From assembly GCA_030272155.1 (NCBI GenBank), contig CP126200.1, forward strand, positions 5,034,001 through 5,098,000: a stretch of 64,000 nucleotides of DNA, written 5' to 3'. Under the pieces are notes generated by a model, which was not told the origin of the DNA, made no database searches, and saw only the letters and a program-made list of their open reading frames with translations. The translations under genes were made by a program, and so were the position numbers. Source of the DNA: Tetradesmus obliquus (lineage: Eukaryota; Chlorophyta; Chlorophyceae; Sphaeropleales; Scenedesmaceae). This document shows positions 11,289-33,884 of the stretch, one piece after another; within the stretch, counting starts at the first letter, position 1; each line of letters opens with the position of its first letter.

Positions 11289-14200
11289 TCATTGTAATAT
11301 GCTATCGCATGCATTGTATTGTATTGTGCCATGACTCACCACTCTTGCTGTTGTAGCGAGAGGCGGGAACTCTGCCGCTGCCACTGCAGCAGCAGCAGCA
11401 GCGCGACGGCGCCGAGCAGGGCAGTATCTGGGCGTGTCCTGCCACGTTTGACCGCATGTTGACTGGATGCGTGCACTGGTCAATGCATAGCCGTCTGCGG
11501 CCTTGAAGTCACCCACAAGCTTTCCGCTGACGCAGCTGACAGTGACAGTTGCAGCAACAGCCGCCTGGGGGGTCTTGCTTGTTGCAGGAGGCCTCAACAG
11601 GTCCAGAGACAGCGGGAAGCAATTGGCGCCTGCCTCCACATTACAGCCCATGACTGTGCAGCTGCCTCCCGGCTGCGGCAGGTATGTTCCTGCCCACAGG
11701 TTATTGCGTGTCGAGGGCGAGGGCTTAGCGTCAGCTAACCCCATAGGACACATCTTGCCGGCTGTGAACGTGCCGACCTTGCAGCCTGTATTTGCAGCAT
11801 TGCGCTGTGCCCTCAAGCTGGCGCAGGAACCCAAAAGCGATGCGTAGTTGCCTGTGATGGTTTTGCAGGTGCCTGGCAAAACCGCGCAGCTGTCGTCCAG
11901 GGACTGGCCGTTCAGTTTGTCGAGCAGCAGCTTTGTCAGGCGTGGCCGAGTCTTTTGTGAGAAGACTGGTGACGCTCCGACAAAGTCCACACAGTAGGTT
12001 ATTGCCACCTGGTTGGGCTGCACAGGCAAGGCAATGCAGCACCGGTCAGGGCAGGGGGCACAGCGAGTTAGTTGCTGAAGCTAAGCCCGTTGTGAGTGCA
12101 GCTGCTCTTAGCAGATGACGTGAGTGATGCAATGCAGATGCACACCATGCATCTGCAAGGCGCGCGCTCCTTGTGCACATGCGCACAACACCGGCAAATT
12201 ACTCTCGCTCTCAAGCATTAAGTCAGGCCCAGCCTGCCCCCAGTGATCTGTCAAATTATATGCCCTACCTGGTCGACGCAGCTGGTGATGTTGACGCGCA
12301 CATTCTGCACGGTCAGGCTGCTGTCCCCGAGTGCAGCCGCCTGCTTGACCGCATCCTCGCTGATTGCAGCAGCCAGCTGAGCATCTGCCCCATCTTTCAT
12401 GATGCGGCTACAGGACAGCACAGACATAGGGATGGCCTTGCCCAGAAGGAAGGTCATACACAGTCCGGAGCCGTCTCCTGGTGGTGCAGCCCCGGAGACC
12501 CACTCAATGACACTTGCAGCGCTACTGACAGCCTGGCCCGTAGTGGCGGCTGTGGTTGCTGTTACGTCGGCGATGACAGCAGCGTCACTGGTGAAGCTTG
12601 CTGTCGCCAGGCCGGCTGCATTCGTCGTGCCGGAGAGCTCGCGGCGAGTGCCGTTTCTGAAGACAGCAGTGAACACAATGCGCTTACCAGCCACTGGCTT
12701 GCCACCCTCTGTGTAGGCGGCACTGACAGTGATAGTTGTGCCTACAGGCACGCGTGCACCGGGCGCAGCGGTCAACTGAAGTAGCGGCTGCTCTGTTGCG
12801 TTGTCGCTGTACCATTCGATGACACTCTTGCTGGCACTTGCAGTGGATCCAGCACCCATTGAAACTGAGGAGATGGTCTTTCCACCAGCCGGCGTGGTGG
12901 TAGCGACAACATCTGCAATTGATGCTGTGTTGCGGACAAGGTTGATGCTGGCAATGCCGCGCGCATTGGTGTTTGCAACGCGCGTTGCCTTTGTGCCATC
13001 GCTGTATGTGATGCTGAAGGTCACTGGCTGGTTGGCTTGACGCGTGCTCCCAACAACATACGTCGCAGATACGCGCACGCGCGTCGCCACCTTCACGCGC
13101 GCTGATGGTGTGAGTCCGAGCTTCAACTGGTGCTGCGACCACTGGATGGTGTCAGATGACTGCGCGAGGAAGGTGCCGGTGATGAGCTTGTTGCTCTTCA
13201 CAAGCCGAGCAGACACCAGCTTTGCATCTTCTGCCAATACTGCAGGGATCTGCACAGTTGCCTTGCAGTCAGCGCCTGTTAGTGCGGTGTATACTGCTCC
13301 AGTTGGCGCGCGCGTGACCGGGTCAATGAGGGTGAACTCTACGGTTTGACCAGCCTGGGGCTTTCCATCCACAGTGTAACAGGCCTCTACTGTGACGGGC
13401 TTTCCTGGGGCGACCACCTGCGCCACAATGCAGTCAGCAGGAGCGGCAAGTGTGTTACCACGCGAGCACAGCATTAAGGCTTTGCCGCACGCCAAGCGGG
13501 CCTTGATGATTTAGGCTCGCTGGTGCAGTGGCGACCAAACGAAATGCAGCTGTTGACTTGAACAACAGTTGCATGCACCAATGCGCTCATGGTTATTACG
13601 CATTAGCACTCACCGGGTCTGGGATGTTGAGTGCAAGCACGTCAGTGTCCTGCTTGAACCACATCAGCGTTGTGCTGCTGCCATCGGCACTGCGGCCCTC
13701 TCCCACGCTTGTACTGACAACTCCAGAGTTGGTGCTGCTGGTTGTCCGAGCCCGAACCACGCAAGAGGCGTCCGTTGCTGCACCACGCACAGTCATGTTG
13801 CGGGGCCAGTACACCTTGCCGTCACTGTCTGTTGTGAGGGTGATGGTATCTGTGGTCTTGTCGCTGTTGGCTGCAGTGAGCGTCACTCTCCTGTTGGGCA
13901 CTGGCTCACCATTCTCTGCAAGGTAAGACAAGACGAGAGCAGTCAGCAGCTGTACCACTGCAGAACATGTGAAGTGCTTGAAGCATGTGCCTGTCGACAT
14001 GTGCTCCATGCAACACCGGACTGCCACAGCTGCCACCCGTATGTCAATCATCACAGCGGCTCCTGCCTATTTATTGAACATTGTGTGCCCTGAACCGCAA
14101 CCCTATTCTACTCACCCAGGTACTGTGCAATCACCGTGATGGTGTCACCAGACGCCACGCGCGCATTGGGTGTGGGCCAGATCTGCAGCTTTTGCGACAC

Positions 14201-33884: not shown

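Follow-up and report, generated by a model that had tools for sequence, protein, structure and literature searches.

The stretch analysed here (the window) comprises 64,000 nucleotides of the green alga Tetradesmus obliquus (assembly GCA_030272155.1, contig CP126200.1, positions 5,034,001 to 5,098,000) and carries on its minus strand a giant, intron-rich gene whose product combines a VWA domain with long arrays of DUF11 and Big_1 domains—an observation first made in an earlier reading of the same DNA (the sequence-only reading) and confirmed here. The gene runs from 33884 to 11289 in window coordinates as 35 exons separated by 34 GT-AG introns, which read as one open frame of 4,128 residues with no internal stop; the predicted protein has a mass of 413.8 kDa, an isoelectric point of 5.18, 124 cysteines and 95 N-x-S/T sites. 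The earlier count of 36 exons joined in frame into about 4,180 residues was thus close, with one open frame standing and only the numbers shifting.

Gene model and domain layout

The model was obtained by six-frame reading followed by a Viterbi splice model, trained and then retrained on the clear frames of the locus itself; GT-AG introns are a requirement built into it, and all splice scores come from matrices trained on the same gene. The start was set by hand at the signal-peptide ATG (33884). Paralogs in the same genome, named here by contig (the window lies on C10), guided two further decisions. At the exon 2/3 junction, the C5 paralog (NLS-TKSQYGAAEF, vs NLS-SDSQYGASEF in the window gene) led to a correction that lifted the VWA match from 40.7 to 54.0 bits and replaced an exon 3 start at 32718. 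The last exon was read through to the stop at 11289 because homology to a C8 paralog, 58% identical over 254 residues there, continues to that point; a split of this exon (11513/11383) was rejected, as the C8 homology runs across it. A candidate exon at 29148..29071 (acceptor score 1.0) was dropped from an intermediate model. When run without a fixed start, the gene finder still returned one gene (35907..10106, 47 exons, 4,087 residues); this extension brought small spurious exons and was set aside in favour of the model fixed at the signal-peptide start and the C8-supported stop. All 13 one-exon DUF11 exons have a length divisible by three. Exons 23, 26 and 31 each have a weak splice site (score 2.0-2.9), and some boundaries at these exons in the Big_1 half may be off at an edge. 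The GC fraction of the window ranges from 0.505 to 0.644 per 2 kb. Intron 1 contains a CACG tetranucleotide array (33494-33680; 46.5 copies, 96% matches).

Table 1. Exons of the minus-strand gene and what they encode, in window coordinates
Exons	Positions	Strand	Content
1	33758..33884	-	Signal peptide MAKAGRMQHMLLLLLAAAAALLAAPATA (by eye) and first VWA strand, CGVAICFAID
2-6	31288..33284	-	Remaining VWA (MIDAS, Cys-rich insert) and first half of the divergent DUF11 unit w00
7	30737..30958	-	Second half of the post-VWA DUF11 unit w00; joined unit PF01345, 32.4 bits
8-9	29461..30370	-	DUF11 unit w01, interrupted by the shared phase-1 intron
10-14	24927..28539	-	DUF11 units w02-w06, each on its own phase-0 exon of 471 or 447 nt that ends in the C..C..CC linker
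15-20	20761..24635	-	Six near-identical DUF11 units w07-w12; exon and intron in tandem, period 685 (once 688) bp
21-22	19290..20522	-	DUF11 units w13 and w14; PF01345, 57.1 bits (19290-19760) and 63.2 bits (20181-20507)
23-33 and most of 34	12500..19000	-	12 Big_1 units
End of 34, and 35	11289..12499	-	Cys-containing C-terminal domain; stop 11289

In the spliced protein, residues 1-29 form the signal peptide (assigned by eye), 30-278 the VWA domain, 275-410 the divergent DUF11 unit, 411-2550 fourteen further DUF11 units, 2551-3809 twelve Big_1 units and 3810-4128 the C-terminal domain. The signal peptide is the most hydrophobic 19-residue stretch by the Kyte-Doolittle scale (2.23, vs 1.51 for the next); with no second such stretch above 1.51 in the 4,128 residues, no membrane anchor is evident. 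The VWA domain matches PF00092 at 54.0 bits (cut-off 23.8), and its metal ion-dependent adhesion site (MIDAS), for which we assume the pattern D-x-S-x-S, Thr, Asp, is complete as DESGS, TNT and LLTDGD. The first of these crosses the exon 1/2 junction, between ID and ESGSI, which the C5 paralog shares. A sequence search of the PDB with the VWA domain gave one weak match, 2xgg (E 0.074).

Against PF01345 (cut-off 24.6), the N-terminal piece scored 117 bits, and all four single exons tested scored 46.4-57.7 bits; since the piece directly after the VWA domain scores as a weaker DUF11, the array totals 15 units. One DUF11 exon also matched NCBIfam TIGR01451 (34.3 bits, cut-off 24). The spliced Big_1 region matched PF02369 at 168.1 bits in 10 stretches (cut-off 34.9), and we divided it into 12 units, of which the first is truncated; taken exon by exon, two of the four Big_1 matches in the window exceeded the cut-off. 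A 266-residue piece of the C-terminal domain had no Pfam match, and a single-sequence structure model of this domain (predicted local distance difference test, pLDDT, 38) was not used. The pherophorin domain DUF3707 (PF12499) was absent from the VWA-side, Big_1 and C-terminal pieces in a Pfam scan at E 0.1. The sequence-only reading had named a signal peptide with a MIDAS-bearing VWA domain, about 15 DUF11 units and about 10 Big_1 units, and had proposed a hidden Markov model search of the spliced protein; VWA, DUF11 and Big_1 all exceed their Pfam cut-offs, the head and the DUF11 count agree, and the Big_1 array is present, with a unit count of 12 by our division.

A single gene across both arrays is the probable reading of these exons. 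The locus could instead hold two adjacent genes on the same strand, one encoding VWA and DUF11 (33884 to a stop at 19230) and the other Big_1 and the C-terminal domain (ATG at 19048 to 11289), an arrangement we consider unlikely. It would account for the fact that C5 and C17, the contigs with the other VWA loci, gave no Big_1 match, and for Big_1 loci on C8, C9 and C13 that have neither VWA nor DUF11 in the stretches fetched (beyond which these genes may extend). Moreover, a signal-peptide-like frame, MLLLLLFVFWMLVLPQVAAG, begins at 19048, just ahead of exon 23, which is itself short and has a weak donor (2.9). However, Leu-rich frames also arise from the CTG-rich intron ends within the array, which makes a signal-like frame expected there; the donor of the last DUF11 exon is strong (7.3) and the acceptor of exon 23 good (6.8), both in phase 0, albeit by gene-trained matrices; and the gap of 289 bp leaves little space for a 3' end and a promoter. 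TGTAA, which we take to be the 3'-end signal, is uninformative here: it is absent from the 289-bp intron and likewise from about 1.5 kb past the real stop, and it occurs in 3 of the 34 introns.

Paralogs and growth of the DUF11 array

We searched the whole genome assembly (104,662,953 bases, 17 contigs) for relatives of the gene; the paralog gene models are rough. VWA relatives lie at four loci—the window, C5, C17 at 2.36 Mb and C17 at 2.43 Mb—which carry different stalks. The C5 locus combines VWA (67.9 bits) with DUF11, its 3' part being incomplete and the locus partly reading N, and the C17 locus at 2.36 Mb combines VWA and DUF11 with a Cys-rich end. At C17 2.43 Mb (2421001-2431000), a VWA domain of 26.5 bits (cut-off 23.8) is followed by a stalk of about 15 Cys-rich repeats of about 53 residues (NLCTANSVNCTAQAGPCRNPGTCNPATGVC...), mostly encoded in 159-nt phase-1 exons, and the piece scanned had no Pfam match. 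DUF11 gave 40 genome-wide matches at E 0.001, distributed over 7 of the 17 contigs; 14 of the 40 fall in the window, and each of these exceeds the cut-off. Big_1 gave eight matches on five contigs, four of them in the window, and two of the eight pass the cut-off as single exons.

Other loci combine these modules with different partners. On C1 (9943001-9953000), a 3.4-kb exon of (SPSPAP)n extensin-like repeats, together with a few longer repeats, is fused to a DUF11 unit (67.1 bits, with a Lys-Asp-Asn triad) and to C..C..CC motifs. Two related genes with Big_1 arrays lie on C9 at 0.18 Mb (178001-188000) and C13 at 3.07 Mb (3066001-3076000), the C13 piece scoring 114.1 bits and the C9 gene having a 453-residue upstream region without a Pfam match. 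The C8 locus (5411001-5421000) contains three Big_1 units and the C-terminal domain of the window gene, about 60% identical; the similarity begins, by eye, near the exon 33/34 border, and an in-frame TAA lies near its end, so that C8 is probably a partial copy of the 3' end of the window gene. Our own unit profiles found no match at E 0.01 at four loci with distant Pfam DUF11 matches (C9 at 4.95 and 4.96 Mb, C6 at 4.16 Mb and C5 at 6.18 Mb) or at the Pfam Big_1 match on C6 at 1.89 Mb, and matched weakly at C13 0.22-0.24 Mb. The pherophorin domain DUF3707 was found once genome-wide among the matches listed.

Within the window, thirteen DUF11 units each occupy a single phase-0 exon of 447 or 471 nt that ends in a C..C..CC linker. 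The four linker cysteines are the sole invariant residues in 12 of 12 aligned linkers, a figure that does not measure linker frequency, as those from other loci were chosen by eye. The exons of w07-w12 agree at 432-447 of 447 positions and their introns at 234-238 of 238-241 aligned columns, and because the introns are as alike as the exons, these copies appear to be recent. Comparable tandems occur on C5, where four compared copies of 948 bp are identical at 947-948 of 948 positions, and on C17, where two compared copies of 891 bp agree at 889 of 891. The six-copy 685-bp repeat shows what we read as a recent lengthening of the stalk, and by the same comparison the window, C5 and C17 loci each appear to have amplified their own unit. 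The assembly may misstate the numbers of these tandem copies.

Origin, selection and the isopeptide question

Both repeat families are mainly prokaryotic, and the 2025 survey PMC12617251, in the part of its text available to us, takes up the question of whether eukaryotes have intramolecular isopeptide domains and treats its eukaryotic hits as likely false positives or contamination. Bacterial contamination or recent horizontal transfer is nevertheless scarcely credible as an account of this locus, which has 34 introns and lies inside a long genome contig, in an assembly with DUF11 on 7 of its 17 contigs. The DUF11 units listed as split, 13 in number and spread over C10, C5, C17 and C1, are all interrupted in one common loop by a phase-1 intron, which in 8 of the 13 falls at the identical alignment column. 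This shared intron is missing from the thirteen one-exon units of the window and from one C5 unit, for which intron loss would be the simpler reading.

A short-pattern scan of contigs from 84,980 species genomes matched 148 stretches, of which three prokaryotic loci were confirmed, the best 42% identical; the same kind of scan on viral contigs yielded 115 candidate stretches, none of them confirmed. The first scan is not exhaustive, since DUF11 is common in prokaryotes, with 44 and 45 matches in two of the three genomes that hold confirmed loci. The paralogs on other chromosomes, the shared introns, the signature of selection set out below and these scans together speak against contamination or recent transfer; an ancient transfer of DUF11 from bacteria or archaea seems likely.

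The ratio of non-synonymous to synonymous substitution rates (dN/dS), estimated by the Nei-Gojobori method, ranged from 0.16 to 0.43 in the 11 comparisons used, which span VWA, DUF11, Big_1 and the C-terminus; dS was 0.24-1.57, near saturation at the top, and one of 12 rows (C17 vs C5) was out of frame and excluded. Compared with C8, Big_1 had a ratio of 0.21 and the C-terminus one of 0.25; the VWA part compared with C5 had 0.31, and eight DUF11 comparisons covered the range 0.16-0.43. By these ratios, the family is evidently under purifying selection. A decaying, non-functional repeat locus would agree with the newest tandem copies being equally alike in introns and exons and with a C8 partial copy that has an in-frame stop; with an open frame maintained through 35 exons and low dN/dS over all domains, we regard it as very improbable. 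Taken together, the data indicate that DUF11/CLIPPER is here a genuine and old component of a family of eukaryotic nuclear genes, one that bears introns and is under selection. The proposal that DUF11 and Big_1 are embedded in spliceosomal exons and have expanded in a eukaryote is therefore borne out, as Pfam matches, paralogs, shared intron positions and selection agree.

In the accessible text of PMC12617251, DUF11 is renamed CLIPPER, and an internal isopeptide bond is demonstrated, with a Lys-Asp-Asn triad at 715/748/806 in 9IFR. For one window DUF11 unit, AlphaFold2 predicted a beta-sandwich; the block means of pLDDT are 70-91 across residues 11-90, and confidence is low beyond that range, the Asn region included. 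A Foldseek search of the PDB with this model placed 9IFR second (E 8.3e-4, 22% identity, template-modelling score 0.40-0.49), behind 3ndy, a carbohydrate-binding domain entry, and ahead of many other beta-sandwiches, so that the match to 9IFR is not exclusive; the unit is predicted to have a CnaA-like Ig fold. Sequence searches of the PDB returned nothing below E 0.6 for the DUF11 profile and nothing below 0.59 for one paralog unit.

The spacing from Lys to the catalytic residue is 33 in both the window unit and 9IFR. Across w01-w14, however, the Asp position is occupied by Glu in 14 of 14 units; Lys is present in 13 of 14, Asn in 7 of 14 and a full Lys-Glu-Asn in 6 of 14. Unit w00 has no triad Lys, and the six recently amplified units have no Asn segment. 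The published Lys-Asp-Asn triad thus occurs in none of the window units, which reach Lys-Glu-Asn at best; it is kept in 2 of the 12 paralog units listed (C17_c and C1_a). Prokaryotic units from three genomes, aligned to the algal-unit profile, served as a control; 40 were counted after duplicates, and units gapped at the Asp column, had been set aside. The Asp position is occupied by Asp in 28 of them and by Glu in 1; Lys is aligned in 15, with 18 gaps, and Asn in 11, with 27 gaps. Lys-Asp-Asn is complete in 3 of 40, a low figure because many alignments stop before the unit ends.

It is possible, though doubtful, that autocatalytic intramolecular isopeptide bonds arise in the secretory pathway within some algal units, namely those of the C17 and C1 paralogs with Lys-Asp-Asn and the six in the window with Lys-Glu-Asn. 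Such bonds would be the first in a eukaryote, in an adhesin-like family with VWA or other heads and DUF11, Big_1 or Cys-rich stalks, which might replace pherophorins as the main matrix proteins of the lineage and tune stalk length by exon-intron duplication. Our search of the open-licence literature gave no paper that connects intramolecular isopeptides with eukaryotes and algae, and the eukaryotic isopeptide question becomes directly testable at this locus.

Proposed role and comparison with known systems

In our assessment, the gene reasonably probably encodes a very long, secreted scaffold protein that forms fibres in the cell covering, whether this is the wall, the sheath or the inter-cell matrix of a colony. 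A matrix or adhesion scaffold is favoured because of the signal peptide, the lack of another evident membrane span, the many cysteines and N-glycan sites, and a DUF11 paralog with extensin-like repeats; a fibre of the cell covering is further supported by the overall architecture, by that C1 paralog, by a divergent neighbour with a giant repeat, and by the almost complete lack of pherophorin domains in this genome. A cell-cell role is plausible, as Tetradesmus cells stay attached in small colonies. The signal peptide would direct the protein to the endoplasmic reticulum, where disulfides and N-glycans would be added. The MIDAS-bearing VWA head would bind a ligand (glycan or glycoprotein) via a divalent metal, 15 DUF11 and 12 Big_1 Ig-like units would provide a stiff, protease-resistant stalk that sets its reach, and the Cys-containing C-terminal domain would retain the chain in the matrix; stalk length could be altered by tandem duplication of one exon-intron unit. 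Secretion, location, ligand binding, a single transcript, C-terminal retention and stiffness are properties that we infer from the gene, as we do adhesion itself; the matrix or cell-cell adhesion scaffold suggested in the sequence-only reading stands as the most likely role.

Several points weigh against the scaffold. At the other loci for which models were made, VWA/DUF11 is found separately from Big_1, the protein is known here from its gene sequence alone, and it has no extensin-type rod of its own. VWA domains are also present in non-adhesive proteins. NCBIfam returned no VWA, Big_1 or C-terminal (exon 35) match for the pieces submitted, and no C-terminal surface anchor (LPXTG, CHU_C or barrel) emerged from Pfam and NCBIfam on the C-terminal pieces, which also have no hydrophobic tail. 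Finally, a mother-wall proteome of Scenedesmus obliquus (PMC11839794) reports, in the portion available, EGF-like, expansin and other proteins, and 'DUF' and 'VWA' never occur in its main text.

The same architecture could alternatively belong not to a wall scaffold but to a surface receptor that recognises other cells, be they surrounding bacteria or gametes. A VWA head with a full MIDAS, and heads and stalks mixed between loci as in recognition proteins, would suit such a receptor, but no transmembrane segment or signalling domain is evident, and the size, the repeats and the extensin-like repeats of a paralog fit a structural role, which leaves the receptor distinctly unlikely. A scaffold of the cell covering is the reading we retain.

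The divergent neighbour (36083-47131, plus strand) has a Leu-rich start, C..C..CC motifs, an Ephrin_rec_like Cys-rich part (29.9 bits, cut-off 23.1, in hand-joined frames), a weak Sushi match below the cut-off (16.5 bits) and a 33-bp coding repeat of 106.8 copies (43610-47106); it probably encodes a giant hydroxyproline-rich wall glycoprotein. Further along, frames at 50827-53029 (plus strand) contain leucine-rich-repeat-like sequence (LPESWADLAQLEVVQLHDNDLNGELP and similar). Flocculation candidates named in the accessible text of PMC7590803 for Scenedesmus obliquus AS-6-11 are fasciclin-domain and glycosylphosphatidylinositol-anchored proteins. The family described here adds candidate molecules for wall building, colony cohesion and flocculation in Scenedesmus-type algae.

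Among known systems, volvocine pherophorins and extensin-like hydroxyproline-rich glycoproteins are secreted algal matrix glycoproteins in expanded families. The window protein resembles them as a predicted secreted algal matrix glycoprotein in an expanded family, and differs in having no pherophorin domain in the pieces scanned and no extensin-type rod, although its neighbour and the C1 paralog have one. Intimin and invasin stalks consist of tandem Big_1 domains, as does part of the algal stalk, and intimin 6tpl is the best solved sequence relative of three of its Big_1 units (E 1.8e-6). Unlike those proteins, the algal one has no outer-membrane barrel or lectin tip that we found, and its Big_1 array follows DUF11 in a eukaryotic, presumably secreted protein. 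The almost identical stalk domains in tandem, suggestive of a change in length, recall the periscope proteins (PMC9704523, in the part available), except that the algal repeat unit is an exon plus intron and is known here from one assembly.

The closest parallel is with the bacterial and archaeal fibrillar adhesins, whose stalks DUF11 builds according to the accessible text of PMC12617251. With these (PMC12617251 and PMC9210967, as far as their available parts go), the algal protein shares a signal peptide, an N-terminal binding-type domain, a long tandem DUF11 array and further Ig-like stalk domains; the fibrillar-adhesin architecture of signal peptide, head and repeated stalk is thus present. 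It departs from them in being encoded by a nuclear gene with 34 introns, in the C..C..CC linker of each one-exon unit, in having no bacterial anchor that we found, and in the Glu that takes the place of the catalytic Asp in w01-w14. In our searches of the open-licence literature, no paper describing DUF11 from a green alga came up; 'von Willebrand' and 'VWA' are not mentioned in the accessible text of PMC10762512. For the DUF11 domain itself, the locus speaks against the dismissal of eukaryotic hits in the accessible text of PMC12617251, and the interpretation in the sequence-only reading, which is partly supported, sharpens to that of a matrix protein built like a fibrillar adhesin, in a eukaryote, whose DUF11/CLIPPER stalk is genuine. 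The adhesin-like build of this nuclear gene suggests that a stalk module regarded as exclusive to bacteria and archaea has long been at home in the cell covering of a eukaryote.

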